Part shown: positions 4,179 through 12,026 of the stretch, in pieces
Numbering within the stretch: position 1 is the stretch's first letter
Layout of the letters: each line of letters opens with the position of its first letter
Made by a program: the position numbers and the translations under genes
Assembly: GCF_030717995.2 (NCBI RefSeq)
Contig: NZ_CP157744.1
Span: 1 to 64,000 of the forward strand
Origin: Methylomarinum sp. Ch1-1
GTDB lineage: Bacteria; Pseudomonadota; Gammaproteobacteria; Methylococcales; Methylomonadaceae
Length of the DNA stretch: 64,000 bases
Direction of reading: 5' to 3'
The notes under the pieces: generated by a model
Database searches by the model: none
What the model saw: only the letters and a program-made list of their open reading frames with translations
What the model was told of the DNA's origin: nothing

Positions 4179-4762
4179 GTGAAAGAAATTGATAAAGGTG
4201 AAAAAAATTGATAAGTCAAACGTGAAAAAAATTGTTAAACGTGAAAAAAATTGATACGAAAAGTGTAAAAAAATGATGCACCGGTGAAAACATTTGTTAC
4301 AGGGGTGAAAACAATTGATTTCTCTGGATCATAAGGCGCACACCGAAGGTGCTTTGTATTTGAGGTGAAAGAAATTGATAAAACCTGCACTGGGAAGCAA
4401 CTGGTGGTATGCGATTTGGCGCCCAAAGGTGAAAAGAATTGATAAAAGATCGGGCATGAAATGGCGTGATCCGATGGCGCTTTTGTATTTAAGGTGAAAG
4501 AAATTGATAAAACCTGCACTGGAAAGCAACTGGTGATATGCGATTTGGCGCCCAAAGGTGAAAAGAATTGATAAAAGATCGGGCCTGAAATGGCGTGATC
4601 CGATGGCGCTTTTGTATTTAAGGTGAAAGAAATTGATAAAACCTGCACTGGAAAGCAACTGATGATATGCGATTTGGCGCCCAAAGGTGAAAAGAATTGA
4701 TAAGCATACTCGCTGGTTCGTTAGTAAAAGAGGAGGAAATGTTAAGTGAAAAAAATTATATT
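4179..4762 (+). repeat. Iteron array 1, replication origin of rep1
   Basis: About fourteen direct repeats of a 17-bp iteron, consensus GTGAAARRAATTGATAA, start at 4179, 4198, 4222, 4241, 4263 (weak), 4284, 4305, 4365, 4429, 4494, 4558, 4623, 4687 and 4746 (weak). From 4365 the iterons are carried in a tandem macro-unit of 129 bp containing two iterons about 64 bp apart. The array lies 220 bp upstream of the Rep_3-type initiator at 4986, the classic arrangement of an iteron-controlled origin. Open frames across this array on the minus strand are repeat artefacts. Bases 4763-4985 are AT-rich with no gene; they may hold the rep promoter and melting region. Confidence 0.85.
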
Positions 4763-6456: not shown

Positions 6457-7818
6457 TCAGTCGAAATGCCCTTGTTCAAAGAGGTCGCATAACGTGGGAA
6501 TGTGCGGCCCAAAGTAGATTGTTTTTTCTTCTATAATGGTCTTATGTCGAACAGCTTGTTGAGTAGACTCCATTACTCGATTTGTTCTAGTAAAAACGTC
6601 ATCCGCTTTGTCTTTGCCCCGTTTCTTTTTGCGAATCGCTGTTTTGGCCGGTTGATTGGCTTCTTTGTCATAGAGCATTTTTGCTCGCACCACATCTAAA
6701 CTATATCCTCTTCCCATACGTTGTATATCTCTTGCTAATCGATTGATGGACTCAGTATAAGCATTGGTGACTTGATAATCAAAACCGTTAAGGATCTCCG
6801 GAAACCAGTTATACAGAGTTGTTATAAGCGGTTCAAAATGCGCCTTAGATTCAACCGGGATATTGGGCTCCCAGGCCAGCAACGCCCCTTTCGCTGTTTT
6901 TGAATCACAATCTTGATCAAAAATATCAAAAAAAGCTTCCTTGGTTTTATAAATAGCCCCTATTTCCGGGAATAAATTCGACCAATACTCAAGTTTTTCC
7001 GCTTCTTCGTTGGACAAATCCCGTTGACGTTTTAACAAGACAAACCGCTCATTTTTCAGTTTCAATCGATCTTTTTTGTCCAACGTCAACCGTATCGCTT
7101 TTCTTGCCTTTTCAATGGCCTCGTTCGCCATCCTGACCACATGAAGTTTATCGATGACAACTAGGCGCCCAGGTAACTCAGAATAAACGGAATCCCGATA
7201 AGGTTCCCACATATCCATCACAACGATTTCAATGGTGTCAGGTGCTTTGATGTTCTTAAAATACAGGGAAACATCCGATTTCTTTCTTGACGGTAAAAGA
7301 TCAAATACAGAATTCTTTTCGATATTGGTCAGAATGCAGCGGTAATTGCCCACTAATTTCAATTCATCAATACCTAAAACCCTAGGGGTTTGAAACGGCA
7401 TCGTTTCCGCCATGTGGCGAGCATAATCATCAAATACATGGCGAATTGTTTTTTCGTCCAGGCCGGTTTCCCGTGCAACCACGGCAAATGTATCACGCAT
7501 AGCGCGTTTCTGGATGTAGTCTTTGAGCCGAGCGGTCATTAACCGTTTATCGTCAATATCCGGCAGTGGCTCACGAAAAGTTTTACCACAAGAACGACAC
7601 TTATAACGTAACCGCTGGATTTTTAGAACTAATGGTTTACCCTGCATGGGCGTATCAAAAAACATTTGCTCGGTTTTATCGTGCGAGTAGAGTTTCTGAA
7701 ACAGGCAGTACGGGCAGGCTTGAGGTTTCAGTTTATTTTCAACGCCGATTTCTAAAAAACGCTCATGATCCGATGCCATCAAAACGCTAAAGTTTGACAG
7801 GTTAAGAAGATCATGCAT
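6457..7818 (-). CDS. ISL3-family transposase
   Basis: 453 residues with the ISL3 layout: an N-terminal zinc-ribbon (ACPYCLFQKLYSHDK, later YKCRSCGKTFREPLP), an HTH (VVARETGLDEKTIRHVFDDYA), then the DDE core with VLGIDELKL, VVMDMWEPYRDSV and VVIDKLHVVRMAN, and a glutamate region ITNAYTESINRLARDIQR. The protein is full length for the family. I could not find convincing terminal inverted repeats. Its ATG is only 9 bases after the stop of the specificity ORF at 7828, so any left IS end must lie inside or overlap that gene. It may be cotranscribed with the restriction genes. Confidence 0.8.
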   Translation of the reverse strand: MHDLLNLSNFSVLMASDHERFLEIGVENKLKPQACPYCLFQKLYSHDKTEQMFFDTPMQGKPLVLKIQRLRYKCRSCGKTFREPLPDIDDKRLMTARLKDYIQKRAMRDTFAVVARETGLDEKTIRHVFDDYARHMAETMPFQTPRVLGIDELKLVGNYRCILTNIEKNSVFDLLPSRKKSDVSLYFKNIKAPDTIEIVVMDMWEPYRDSVYSELPGRLVVIDKLHVVRMANEAIEKARKAIRLTLDKKDRLKLKNERFVLLKRQRDLSNEEAEKLEYWSNLFPEIGAIYKTKEAFFDIFDQDCDSKTAKGALLAWEPNIPVESKAHFEPLITTLYNWFPEILNGFDYQVTNAYTESINRLARDIQRMGRGYSLDVVRAKMLYDKEANQPAKTAIRKKKRGKDKADDVFTRTNRVMESTQQAVRHKTIIEEKTIYFGPHIPTLCDLFEQGHFD

Positions 7819-7827
7819 GATGGCTTC

Positions 7828-8931
7828 CTAGTTTTGAACAACGTATTTCGTTGCGGCCATCTTTTTATCCGCATACTCCACAACACCTTTGATCACCATT
7901 TTTTGTATTGCGGAAATAAAGGTTTCCATTGAAACTAACGCTGGCTTTTTGTTTTGAGCGGGGAGCTTCATTGTAAAAGCCAAACTTTGCGAGCTTCTCA
8001 GTTTCTTTCCATAAGAGAATTTTCCGAACAAGGATTTCTCCATTGATGTCGTAAAAAATAGCATTGCTTCTTTTGAATAATTTTTTTGGTCGCTCCAATA
8101 AACCCCTGTATCGTCTCCAGCACCAAAACTATAATTCCGGTAAAAAGCATTTCCAAAAATATCTATCGTTATCGAATTGTTAGGAAAACTTGCTACAGGG
8201 TTTGAAATGTAATTAACGACTCCCGTATTGGTAGTCCCCGCCATGACAAACGGAATCTCTCCGGGAAGCTGGTCGTCTTTTTTAAGTCTTCTGCCTTGAG
8301 CAATGTTATTGAAGATTGTTTGGTAGCTGAATTCACCCCAACTGAATTTCCCGTTTTCAAAATCATTCAAAGCCTGTTGTTCATCAGGGGTTAATGTGGT
8401 GTCTTTGAGACCAGCCACAGACAGATAGGCTTCCAGCTCCTCTAAACGCTCTGCTTCCAGCTCCGCTATAAAACTTTCCATGAAATCAAAGTCAATTCCG
8501 CCATTGTTAATGGGAAGCTTCATCGTGAAATCCAAGCTTTGTGAACTTCTCAATTTATTTCCATAAGAAAATTTCCCCGATAAAGATTTTTGCATGGATA
8601 TTGAGAAAAACAGCATCGCTTCTTTTGAATAATTTTCCTCATCACTCCAATACACCCCAGTATCATCGCCAGCGCCGAACGCATAATCCCGATAAAACGT
8701 ATTGCCAAAAATATCAATGGTAATTGAGTTTTTGGGGAAACTTGCTACAGGGTTTGAAATGTAATTAACGACTCCCGTATTGGTAGTCCCCGCCATGACA
8801 AACGGAATCTCTCCGGGAAGCTGGTCGTCTTTTTTAAGTCTTCTGCCTTGAGCAATGTTATTGAAGATCGTTTGGTAGCTGAATTCACCCCACTCAACAT
8901 TTTTTAGTTTTTCGTTAAGTGGGGATTCTAC
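7828..8931 (-). CDS. Restriction-modification specificity (S) module, no canonical start
   Basis: DNA-specificity domain protein in the HsdS/BcgIB style. It has two near-identical target-recognition units, each beginning WGEFSYQTIFNNIAQG and containing IPFVMAGTTNTGVVNYISNP, then ITIDIFGN and AGDDTGVYWSD. They are separated and followed by helical spacers (MESFIAELEAERLEELEAYL; METFISAIQKMVIKGVV). About 150 bp is nearly identical at DNA level between the halves (around 8190-8340 and 8740-8890). The frame is open from 8943, but no ATG, GTG or TTG precedes the first conserved unit; the first ATG (8796) lies inside it. The frame joins the upstream nuclease-methylase by a -1 shift at GGGAAAG (8937-8931). 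Two like units predict a symmetric bipartite target. Confidence 0.75.
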   Translation of the reverse strand, partial: VESPLNEKLKNVEWGEFSYQTIFNNIAQGRRLKKDDQLPGEIPFVMAGTTNTGVVNYISNPVASFPKNSITIDIFGNTFYRDYAFGAGDDTGVYWSDEENYSKEAMLFFSISMQKSLSGKFSYGNKLRSSQSLDFTMKLPINNGGIDFDFMESFIAELEAERLEELEAYLSVAGLKDTTLTPDEQQALNDFENGKFSWGEFSYQTIFNNIAQGRRLKKDDQLPGEIPFVMAGTTNTGVVNYISNPVASFPNNSITIDIFGNAFYRNYSFGAGDDTGVYWSDQKNYSKEAMLFFTTSMEKSLFGKFSYGKKLRSSQSLAFTMKLPAQNKKPALVSMETFISAIQKMVIKGVVEYADKKMAATKYVVQN

Positions 8932-10964
8932 TTTCCCGACTTTTCACCTTCACCCGCTTGTCGTTTGAGCAGGTTGGAAACTTCCCAGGCCAAATAATCA
9001 CCCACCGTTTTTTTGAAATCCTGCAAGGTCGGTTTGGTATCGATAGGGATGGACTGATTCCAGTCGGCGCCATTGTTCGGATCAATGGTGTTTTCGTAAT
9101 ATTCTGATTCGGTAAAAATGTTGAGCTTGGATTTACCAAAGCGCACCAGGCTAACCAGCTCTTCATATCGCGCTTTCGCTCGATCGGTATCTTTGAGGTT
9201 GTTACTGGCTTTTTTCCGGTTAGTGCGCGTGTAGCCATCGTTTGAAAAGTCGATAAATTTAACCCTTTCATCTGGATGGTGCGCTTCATTGACCTTAAAC
9301 ACATAGATATGTGTTTGTACGCTGGATTTGCCAATAAACAGGTCTATCGGCATTTTAATGCTGGCCAATAGCGTATTTTTCTTCAGAATTTTCTGGTTGA
9401 TGGTTTTCGCCTTGCCTGAGCCTGCAGAGCCTTGAATAATAATGGCGGCATAGCCTTTATCCATTAGTTTAAGTGCTTTTTTGACAAAATTCATGCCGTT
9501 ACCCTGGGCGGAATAGGGTGGATTGAGTATAAAGGCATCGGCCGGAAACTTTGCATTCGCTTTGCCAAAGTCATACTTGCCGTCAAAATCCTGTAAAGAG
9601 TCCTTGTTTAGAATGTTGGAGCTGCCATCACCCATTAAGATCATATTGAGAATGGCTAGCATATACACGCTGGATAATACCTCTAGGCCGAGCAACTGTT
9701 CAGCTTTTATCTTCGCCTCTTTTTGGGCAAGATCTTCAGGCGAAGCAATGCTGTTTTTAGCATCGTTCAACATTTCGTTCATTGCAGCAACGAGCAGGCC
9801 AGCGGAACCTGTGGCAAAGTCCCAGACATAGGAATCTTTATTGACCCGAGCCAGCTTTGCCAAAAGGGTGGCGATATAGGATGGCGTGAGCACGACATCA
9901 TTGAGTTTGTCCTGGGAAAAGCCCAGCCAGCCATACATTTCATTGAAGAGCTTGCCGGTAAAGTCGGTGGTCAAGCCGATTTTGTAGTAGATGCCCAAAT
10001 CATCAACGACTTTGACAAAAACCCGTTTTAACTGGCTTTCGCCATGGGTGACTTTGTTAATATTAGTGGTGGTCAGCGTGTTCTGAAGTGTTCTAAGAAT
10101 TAAATCGCGCTTTTCTTTCGGGATGTCCTTTTCATTCAAAAAGGCTTTTATCTTGCGGACGATAATATCGCCATCCGTATTACCTTCCTCGGTTGAGGAC
10201 TTTAAATCCGCTTTTTCAAGCGGAGCGACCTTGCCAGGAACTCCTAGTGTCGCAATTATCGAGGCGGCAACCAGATAAACGCGGTCGTTTTCCCCTAAGC
10301 CTTTTTCATTCTGATAAATATCGTTATTCAGCCTTACCAGGCTCGCATCGATTTCTTTTTCGCGTTGTTCTTTGAGTTTGTCGAGTTCTGCTTGCGACAG
10401 AGTTAAGGTTTTAACCTGCTCTATAAACGCATCAAAATGTGTCGGTGACAAAAAAGAAAAATCGGTAAAATCGCCGACTTTTTGACCGACGCCAAAATTG
10501 GATTTTGAAACGTAATAAACGCCGATCTCGTGCTGGATAGTGTTAGACTCATCTTTATAGCCCGTCATCCCAATGGCAATAATGTCGGTATAACTGGTGT
10601 GGTGTAGCAAGGCATTGGCGTAATGCACTGCGCCATTAACAGCAAATGAATTGATGTTTTTAAAATGAGATTCGTTTTTAGCCGTTCTGTTTTCGACCTT
10701 TCCGGCCGCATCGAGTTTGACAAGCTTATCTTTGTAGCCTTTGTACTCAATAAGTATAGGAAAGTAATCCAGATTTTTGTCTTGCAATAAGAGCTTTGCA
10801 TCGGGGCGATTGGCACCTGAGCCGCCGTTTTTGGTAAAGTAATCAGACAGGGCTTTGTCAATTTCAGCATTTAACGATTCTTGCTCTAACTTGTAATCCA
10901 GTTCGTAAGATTTAAGCCATCCGTTCGCCAGGTCTGCAATATTGGGTTCGATTGATTTTGCCAT
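8928..10964 (-). CDS. BcgI-like fused endonuclease and N6-adenine methyltransferase
   Basis: 678 residues. The N-terminal region carries a PD-(D/E)xK nuclease signature: D55 in RPDAKLLL and E73-Y-K75 in LIEYKG. Middle and C-terminal parts are an HsdM-type N6 methyltransferase: motif I DFATGSAGLL near residue 379 and catalytic motif NPPY near 480, followed by GNGMNFVKKALKLMDKGY and FIGKSSVQTHIYVF. Size and order match BcgIA-type subunits of type IIB/IIG enzymes, which cut and methylate with a separate or fused S part. The stop TAG at 8928-8930 follows the slippery heptamer G GGA AAG. Promoter lies in the divergent gap 10965-11039. Confidence 0.85.
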   Translation of the reverse strand: MAKSIEPNIADLANGWLKSYELDYKLEQESLNAEIDKALSDYFTKNGGSGANRPDAKLLLQDKNLDYFPILIEYKGYKDKLVKLDAAGKVENRTAKNESHFKNINSFAVNGAVHYANALLHHTSYTDIIAIGMTGYKDESNTIQHEIGVYYVSKSNFGVGQKVGDFTDFSFLSPTHFDAFIEQVKTLTLSQAELDKLKEQREKEIDASLVRLNNDIYQNEKGLGENDRVYLVAASIIATLGVPGKVAPLEKADLKSSTEEGNTDGDIIVRKIKAFLNEKDIPKEKRDLILRTLQNTLTTTNINKVTHGESQLKRVFVKVVDDLGIYYKIGLTTDFTGKLFNEMYGWLGFSQDKLNDVVLTPSYIATLLAKLARVNKDSYVWDFATGSAGLLVAAMNEMLNDAKNSIASPEDLAQKEAKIKAEQLLGLEVLSSVYMLAILNMILMGDGSSNILNKDSLQDFDGKYDFGKANAKFPADAFILNPPYSAQGNGMNFVKKALKLMDKGYAAIIIQGSAGSGKAKTINQKILKKNTLLASIKMPIDLFIGKSSVQTHIYVFKVNEAHHPDERVKFIDFSNDGYTRTNRKKASNNLKDTDRAKARYEELVSLVRFGKSKLNIFTESEYYENTIDPNNGADWNQSIPIDTKPTLQDFKKTVGDYLAWEVSNLLKRQAGEGEKSGK

Positions 10965-11031
10965 ATTCCACGCTCCATTCCGTTTTGTGTATAAATTATA
11001 GCATGGCGCATTCCACTATCCATTCCGTTTT
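10965..11031. promoter_or_regulatory. Divergent promoter region with two 22-bp direct repeats
   Basis: Two near-identical 22-bp repeats of the form ATTCCACKMTCCATTCCGTT sit at 10965-10986 and 11010-11031, 45 bp apart, between the leftward restriction gene and the rightward caspase-like gene. A third half-site, CCATTCCGG, lies at about 11073-11083 inside the reading frame of the second gene. Such paired repeats between divergent genes are typical operators. I infer a shared regulator, not identified here. Confidence 0.55.
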
Positions 11032-11039
11032 TGCAATAA

Positions 11040-12026
11040 ATGTCAACTTCCTTTCATGATAGAATTTCCTCGACCATTCCGGGAACCCAAAATTTATTAA
11101 TGAATTTTTTCTTAGATTTAACTCCGCAAGAGCAAGCCTTGATTGACAGCCTGCCAAAGCCTCCATACTCTGCAACCGTACAATCCACGAATGTTTGGAT
11201 TATTGAATGGTTATCTCCTGAAGAGAGAAGGACTGGCTATGAATTGCATTGTTGGATGGGAAAGCAACGACAGGGATGGTCGATCTACAATAGATGCGAT
11301 ACAAAAGCAGAAGTCTTACGCTCTATTAAGCGAGCGGCTTATAAGGCTCAACAAACGGGATTTATTCCAGTGCTTCACATTGAGGCTCACGGTGGCCCGA
11401 TAGGTATAATGCCATCAAGCAAAAGCATAGAGGAGTTCATCGCATGGGAAGAACTCACAAAACCGCTTCAGGATTTAAATGAAGCAACAAAATGTAACTT
11501 GATTTTTGTCGTGGCGGCATGCCTAGGACTTGCTGCAGTCCAAGTATTAACAAAAGGACCGCGAGCCCCAGCCGTTGCTTTAGTTGGCTCCGACGAAGAA
11601 GTTAATGAAAGCGATCTTTTGCATGGAATGCAAGAATTCTATCGATGTTTTAGAGATGATGATCTAATGCTTTCCGATATTGTAGAAAGCGCTTCGAGAG
11701 AAATGATTTCTGCTAACTTTTATATTGAGCCATTCGCGATACTTGCTTATGAATCTCTAGTAGAGCATTTAATAAGAGCAAGAAGACCTGCTGAACGCCA
11801 AATGAAGCTGGAGAAACTACGACAACGACTGCGCAATAAAACCAGTTTCTCAGATGAAGAAATAGAAAAACGTTTGGCTAAACTTCCTGAATCTCCCTTA
11901 TCAGAAAACTTGCAGAAAGCATGGGATTGCATGTTTATGATTGACCTTGATCCGAAAAATAAAGTTCGATTCGGACTTGATTGGGAAGAAATTGCAAGTC
12001 AAATATTTACCTGTTCACCTACTTAA
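11040..12026 (+). CDS. Caspase-like (CHAT-type) cysteine peptidase, stand-alone
   Basis: 328 residues. The pattern VLHIEAHGGPIGI (H117, G118) followed about 40 residues later by LIFVVAACLGLAAVQVL (C161) is the His-Gly/Cys dyad layout of caspase-fold peptidases (clan CD), as in CHAT proteins. Downstream, APAVALVGSDEEVNE fits the next core strand and loop. The C-terminal third is charged and helical. No fused sensor or effector domain and no signal peptide are seen. The ATG at 11040 lacks a clear Shine-Dalgarno; an alternative ATG is at 11100. It is divergent from the BcgI-like restriction operon, so a role in defence or regulated cell death is plausible but inferred. Confidence 0.65.
   Translation: MSTSFHDRISSTIPGTQNLLMNFFLDLTPQEQALIDSLPKPPYSATVQSTNVWIIEWLSPEERRTGYELHCWMGKQRQGWSIYNRCDTKAEVLRSIKRAAYKAQQTGFIPVLHIEAHGGPIGIMPSSKSIEEFIAWEELTKPLQDLNEATKCNLIFVVAACLGLAAVQVLTKGPRAPAVALVGSDEEVNESDLLHGMQEFYRCFRDDDLMLSDIVESASREMISANFYIEPFAILAYESLVEHLIRARRPAERQMKLEKLRQRLRNKTSFSDEEIEKRLAKLPESPLSENLQKAWDCMFMIDLDPKNKVRFGLDWEEIASQIFTCSPT

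Follow-up and report, generated by a model that had tools for sequence, protein, structure and literature searches.

The 64,000-nucleotide stretch of DNA analyzed here, positions 1-64,000 of contig NZ_CP157744.1 from Methylomarinum sp. Ch1-1 (the window), carries on its minus strand a restriction-methylation (RM) gene and, entered from the end of this gene in the -1 frame, a specificity (S) reading frame. Comparison of homologous loci indicates that the RM-S junction is very probably a programmed -1 ribosomal frameshift signal, from which one gene would yield both a free RM chain and an RM-S fusion. The locus has the following features, given in window coordinates.

8928..10964, minus strand: RM gene; its 678 aa frame-0 product ends in ...GEKSGK and consists of a nuclease-like N-terminus and an N6-adenine DNA methylase.
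8945..8950, minus strand: Shine-Dalgarno (SD)-like AAGGTG just upstream of the slip site, a putative stimulator.
8931..8937, minus strand: slippery heptamer G GGA AAG, read as ..G GGA AAG in frame 0 and as GGG AAA G.. in frame -1.
8928..8930, minus strand: frame-0 stop TAG directly past the heptamer, which ends the RM-only product.
8913..8924, minus strand: CCCCACTTAACG, 5' arm of a 12-bp stem-loop that begins 6 nt past the heptamer.
8888..8899, minus strand: TGTTGAGTGGGG, 3' arm of the same stem-loop.
7828..8943, minus strand: S reading frame, -1 relative to RM, with two Methylase_S stretches (Pfam).
8422..8934, minus strand: S unit 1, the N-terminal conserved segment and target recognition domain (TRD) 1, residues 2-172 of the -1 frame counted from the heptamer.
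7870..8382, minus strand: S unit 2, the central conserved segment and TRD2, residues 186-356, 71% identical to unit 1.

The methylase part of RM is clear, with an N6_Mtase domain scoring 80.5 bits (Pfam), and the nuclease is seen only through a PADLOC whole-protein model and a VRR_NUC match of 21.5 bits, which lies under its cut-off of 23.8 (Pfam). An earlier reading of the sequence alone had called the system BcgI-type; this holds for the architecture, but by sequence RM is closest to PADLOC REase_MTase_IIG PDLC03616 (799.6 bits). The S frame, open from 8943 (after TGA 8946-8944) to TAG 7830-7828, also matches PADLOC Specificity_II. Its AlphaFold model, built from a 65-row alignment, has a mean pLDDT of 91 and shows two repeated halves: a helix at residues 8-14 and a strand at 18-22, whose codons directly follow the slip site, have counterparts at 186-196 and 202-206. 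Foldseek matches to this model were 1ydx, a type I S subunit (E 4.1e-17, TMq 0.60), and, from the type IIB enzyme BsaXI, the S-like chain C (8w0p_C; E 4.1e-8, TMq 0.38). S is a two-TRD, type I-like module, as expected of a BcgI-like type IIB system. A sequence search of the PDB returned nothing at E<=0.01.

The two TRDs of the window S are 71% identical in protein, whereas those of the other 79 two-unit S modules compared reach at most 37%; a 300-nt direct repeat at 83% lies at 7960-8259 and 8512-8811 on the minus strand, and the target of this S is predicted to be a palindromic bipartite site. In two viral contigs the central spacer that separates the TRDs contains short tandem repeats (L126:5590-5640 and L123:5515-5580), a possible way to vary the spacing between the target halves.

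We compared the junction across 87 loci, each with an RM match of at least 600 bits: the best 80 of 295 genome_contigs relatives, the window copy, and six strong loci from related genomes. Five duplicates were removed, leaving 82 distinct loci with 10 phylum names. An in-frame GGG AAA R lies close to the RM stop in 78 of these (51 GGGAAAG, 27 GGGAAAA), and L059 has the heptamer behind an upstream frame break, bringing the total to 79 of 82. The sequence-only reading had placed G GGA AAG directly ahead of the stop, and this proved correct: the last RM codons are TCG GGA AAG TAG, with the heptamer at 8937-8931 and TAG at 8930-8928. Across the family the stop follows the heptamer immediately in 75 of the 78 loci (TAG 46, TAA 29); in L023 and L027 it comes one codon later and in L058 four codons later, with the heptamer kept. 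The codon preceding GGA is NNG in all 78.

How far this exceeds the need of the protein was seen in a comparison of codon columns in 75 full-length RM genes of the 78 (L029, L063, and L072, whose RM is interrupted, were dropped), which gave 672 well-filled columns. The rows were preselected for the heptamer, a selection that removed only 4 of the 82 loci, L059 among these despite having it. Besides Met and Trp columns, only those of the two heptamer codons have one and the same third base in 99% or more of the rows. The first codon is NNG in 72/72 filled rows (55 Leu, 10 Ser, 3 Pro, and others) and the second GGA in 75/75; at the other 35 Gly columns that are invariant in RM, no single codon exceeds 65%. 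The slip site, an X XXY YYZ heptamer in register with frame 0 where RM ends, is thus conserved in nucleotides beyond what the protein requires. With only three G and three A, the runs lack the length needed for phase variation or transcriptional slippage, and the latter was rejected for the junction on this ground.

As the sequence-only reading had also stated, the -1 frame of the window holds no ATG, GTG, or TTG between its upstream stop at 8946-8944 and the first conserved unit (WGEFSYQ). An ordinary start first appears in the S frame with ATG 8796, some 48 codons into the frame and within TRD1, and its use would remove the first conserved unit. Of the 78 loci, 34 (the window included) have no ATG, GTG, or TTG from the upstream stop of the -1 frame up to the first W of S, and in the remaining 44 such codons stand at differing places. 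The homologues thus share the heptamer site in 79 of 82 loci and show no ordinary start at a conserved place; a separately started S, as in BcgI, is not what the window family has. The rare ATT start proposed earlier falls away with the near-cognate starts in general, which have no conserved position: the window S frame contains no in-frame ATT ahead of the first conserved unit. None of 71 loci has a -1 stop over positions +6..+66, and stops occur in frame 0 past its own stop in 51 of 71 and in frame +1 in 69 of 71; this count leaves out L002, L015, L020, L058, L077, L080, and L081, of which L002 and L015 do have -1 stops there. Within the loop of the hairpin, third positions of the -1 codons are more variable than second positions, as expected for translated codons.

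In the window the hairpin folds at -18.5 kcal/mol (z -5.1), with 0 of 200 shuffles as good, and at least 11 of its 12 pairs are kept in 71 of the 78 loci and 10 of 12 in two. We aligned the stem in 72 of the 78 loci, leaving out L020, L058, L077, L080, and L081 (other stem or register) and L074 (too short). In this alignment 95.7% of cells are paired, vs 93.6% after shuffling (0/500 as high) and no more than 51.7% with the arms slid; 30 cells are changed on both sides, vs 4.6 +- 3.5 in shuffles (0/500), and four stem pairs have both-side changes, vs 1.7 (11/500). The innermost pair is weak, being unpaired in 30 of the 72 loci. L058 and L080 have the usual stem in a shifted register, whereas L020, L077, and L081, whose S has an unrelated N-terminus, form a wholly different stem at the same position (-24.9, -25.5, and -29.7 kcal/mol; z -6.4 to -7.0). 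Together with the compensatory changes, these cases show the structure conserved through changes of sequence, and it lies at the short spacing of a -1 frameshift stimulator. Rfam gave no match at the gathering threshold over the 64-kb window, and a known RNA family at the junction was rejected, the lone match at E<=10 in a 401-base stretch being a chance hit to mir-722 (E 6.2) on the other strand.

A second putative stimulator lies upstream. A match of at least 5/6 to AGGAGG at -18..-7 occurs in 31 of the 78 loci, vs 1.3% of windows drawn within the same RM genes. Host tRNA matches (n=46) include one tRNA-Lys, with anticodon UUU, and no tRNA-Gly with CCC; one tRNA-Lys would therefore re-pair from AAG to AAA. 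Given stimulators, G_GG.A_AA.G is counted with A_AA.A_AA.G and C_CC.A_AA.G as the most efficient heptamers in Escherichia coli (passages of PMC4066793).

The same junction was found on an Acinetobacter plasmid (L111), on viral contigs, and in Escherichia phage PhiR12_3. A search of 5,426 complete E. coli genomes gave matches in 29, and seven E. coli regions were examined. Three of these (L134, L138, and L140) read G GGA AAG TAA, have a -1 frame open for 391 to 399 codons, and carry a RefSeq label for the first S part as a pseudogene 'missing N-terminus and C-terminus' (3/7 regions). In the other four (L135, L136, L137, and L139) and in the viral contigs L123 and L126 the heptamer is A AAA AAG, in the E. 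coli four placed one codon ahead of TAA; L135 has an IS1 within its S region. The E. coli prophage and viral forms use two of the three heptamers named above as most efficient in E. coli with stimulators. Several genomes of the host's own group with the system, matched via identical junctions, are methanotroph records, which makes a methanotrophic gammaproteobacterium the probable host. A covariance model of the junction, run on 200 related genomes, matched seven, and a full-length RM is present in exactly these. A class-wide sample gave a match at E<=1e-100 in 1 of 369 genomes, the own one; a near-identity search of plasmids gave no match, and a pattern scan of viral contigs found a single stretch, on the already included contig L122.

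Another explanation is that S is made as a separate chain by stop-coupled reinitiation at TAG, with GTA or ATA at the overlap as a non-standard start codon, in the manner of ATGA overlaps in operons. The first -1 codon past GGG AAA, GTA at 8931, overlaps the stop and occupies the position of an ATGA-type start, and in the Lactobacillaceae systems L112-L114 (40% identical) S does start with an ordinary ATG in an 8-nt overlap. An unverified fecal phage clone (L133:4099-4108) has the junction GGGAAAATGA, in which the -1 codon past the heptamer is ATG. Reinitiation leaves three things unexplained, however: the fixed GGG AAA upstream of the overlap, the retention of the heptamer in L023, L027, and L058 although the stop there lies one to four codons later, and its replacement by A AAA AAG. 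GTA is also not known to serve as an efficient start codon, and we regard this explanation as very improbable.

The slip site is absent from three of the 82 loci (L036, L045, and L067) and from the viral contig L129, in all of which RM runs into S in one frame. Each of these four in-frame fusions has exactly one Methylase_S unit, whereas two S units are present in 80 of 86 frameshift loci, the six others (L019, L025, L042, L055, L076, and L111) being broken or cut by the record end. The 86 comprise 74 of the 78 loci and 12 plasmid, viral, and E. coli loci, all with S longer than 60 aa and with near-copies (e.g., L124/L130/L138) included; L002 and L015, where S is broken at once, and L009 and L074, where the record ends, were left out. 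In the RM tree the four in-frame rows stand at four places, L129 as a long branch of unsure place. L036 has TTA GGA AAA at the former heptamer position, read straight through; by our reading of the sequences it appears to have kept the second TRD and the other fusions the first.

A further explanation, that S is a pseudogene or that the site reflects a one-base mutation, phase variation, or faulty assembly in an ancestral RM-S fusion, could draw on the RefSeq labels in L134, L138, and L140 and on the truly broken S of some loci. Mutation and assembly error, both raised by the sequence-only reading, are untenable for the family because 79 of 82 distinct loci share the site. Against a pseudogene stands the open two-unit S in 80 of 86 frameshift loci, and against phase variation the shortness of the two runs; the probability of this explanation is close to nil.

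Programmed -1 frameshifting is the best reading of the junction because the heptamer is conserved, the S frame is open and start-less, a conserved hairpin follows, and the site is absent only in one-TRD fusions; the hairpin, the SD-like element, and the one-TRD exceptions go beyond the sequence-only reading. We are highly confident that the signal is in operation, and the single R-M-S chain proposed earlier gains support from the 79 loci, the hairpin, and the start-less frame; the occurrence and rate of slippage, and that S would be made in no other way, we infer. Ribosomes would reach G GGA AAG with the stop next, where the 12-bp stem 6 nt downstream would hold them, helped in many homologues by the SD-like sequence. 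A part of them would terminate, releasing free RM with nuclease and methylase and no target reader. Others would slip back by one base, tRNA-Gly moving from GGA to GGG and tRNA-Lys from AAG to AAA, and would go on to translate the two-TRD S into a single RM-S chain. The sequence-only reading had expected an abundant S-less form and a low-abundance fusion. That one gene gives two forms is supported, but the low abundance had been supposed; since G_GG.A_AA.G is one of the three heptamers named most efficient in E. coli with stimulators, the fusion may make up a sizeable share of the product, and RM and RM-S would come in equal amounts if every second ribosome shifted.

One RM-S and one free RM would then assemble into (RM)2S, on the same plan as A2B in BcgI and M2S in type I enzymes, and frameshifting probably serves to set the RM : RM-S ratio. 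The four exceptions suggest that a one-TRD fusion could dimerize to the same content as (RM)2S. We therefore propose, with a probability of roughly two in three, that these systems form a distinct, widespread R-M class between two-chain BcgI and one-chain TstI, in which -1 frameshifting fixes RM : RM-S for (RM)(RM-S) assembly; in systems whose S has shrunk by half to a single TRD, a 1:1 ratio is enough and the frameshift is given up. Frameshifting, if real, might instead have another purpose, to limit the amount of restriction-competent enzyme so that a mobile R-M system can establish safely. Here the system sits on a plasmid-like contig (Rep3, ParA), in Acinetobacter on a plasmid, and in E. 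coli in prophages, and S-less RM should not recognize a target, all of which would suit such a dosage role. This role does not predict the halved S in all four frameshift-free relatives, and we consider it possible and distinctly less likely than a role in stoichiometry.

Several points weigh against our interpretation. The comparison rests on the best 80 of 295 genome_contigs relatives, and the in-frame, one-TRD cases number only four, with the position of L129 unsure. The SD-like element is weak in the window copy and below 5/6 in 47 of the 78 loci. Passages of PMC4066793 call G_GG.A_AA.A inefficient in E. coli, and 27 of the 78 loci have such a heptamer. The stems that accompany A AAA AAG are less striking than the main stem: -18.1 kcal/mol in L123 (z -3.3, 2/200 shuffles as good) and -17.6 kcal/mol in L136 (z -2.6, 3/200), while in L126 another fold is preferred (z -1.95, 7/200). 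S is broken in L002, L015, L025, L042, and L055 and has a stop between the TRDs in L019, so RM can persist without an intact S. Finally, an engineered EcoKI M-S fusion worked in vivo without added M, for which its authors invoke proteolysis or occasional stops (parts of PMC3510504); a free catalytic chain may therefore not be strictly needed.

The surroundings of the locus fit a plasmid-like contig, with a Rep3 initiator and ParA near RM-S. Tandem arrays of GTGAAAAAAATTGATAAA-like units at 4179-4703, including a 129-bp unit at 97% matches, lie ahead of the Rep3 gene and are probably replication iterons. An ISL3-family transposase gene, on the minus strand like S (6457-7818), begins 9 nt past the S stop. 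A divergent gene at 11040-12026 matches nothing in Pfam, NCBIfam, or PADLOC; between it and the start of RM, two 32-nt direct repeats (81% alike) at 10965-10996 and 11010-11041 are possible operator sites.

Frameshifting between RM and S was not reported among the matches listed in a literature search of open PMC full texts, subscription journals and REBASE lying outside its scope, and the main-text passages on restriction or heptamers in PMC3711429 (GeneTack), PMC4066793, and PMC5009743 hold no matching case. A -1 shift has been considered for a C-REase fusion, with no product seen (passages of PMC3850674). The class of mechanism is known; its use in RM-S, its conservation, and its link to the halving of S appear to be new. 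To our knowledge, cellular bacterial -1 frameshifts conserved across phyla are few, dnaX and copA being known cases. If true, our proposal adds a cross-phylum cellular case in a mobile defense system found on plasmids, prophages, and genome contigs, with subunit ratio as its rationale and the four in-frame relatives with halved S as natural controls. It would account for the pseudogene labels and internal starts given to S in the records examined, and would offer a testable way for an R-M enzyme to set its own composition.

The frameshift in dnaX uses an X XXA AAG heptamer, a downstream structure, and an SD-like stimulator. The same elements serve the IS3 family (IS911/IS3, passages of PMC4066793). 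Both resemble the present case in these elements and differ from it in the genes concerned; here both products belong to a single R-M enzyme. The engineered EcoKI M-S fusion (Type IMS), which cleaved in vitro only after extra M was added (parts of PMC3510504), likewise joins M to a two-TRD S, but it was engineered from two genes with starts of their own by taking out the frame change that lies between them, whereas here both forms would come from one gene. BcgI, an A2B assembly (passages of PMC4027205), shares with the window family the type I-like S module and, with the nuclease of the window RM only putative, the plan of nuclease and methylase in one chain; its S, however, is a separate subunit (parts of PMC3510504), as is S in the distant relatives phi-42 (L131) and Lactobacillaceae L112-L114, whereas here S is start-less and would be joined to RM by the frameshift. 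TstI is a single chain with domains at 1:1:1 that forms a homotetramer (passages of PMC4027205). TstI and AloI carry R, M, and S on one polypeptide, as the frameshift product would here, but the window has no single uninterrupted R-M-S frame, with TAG standing between RM and S, and both an S-less and an S-bearing chain are encoded.

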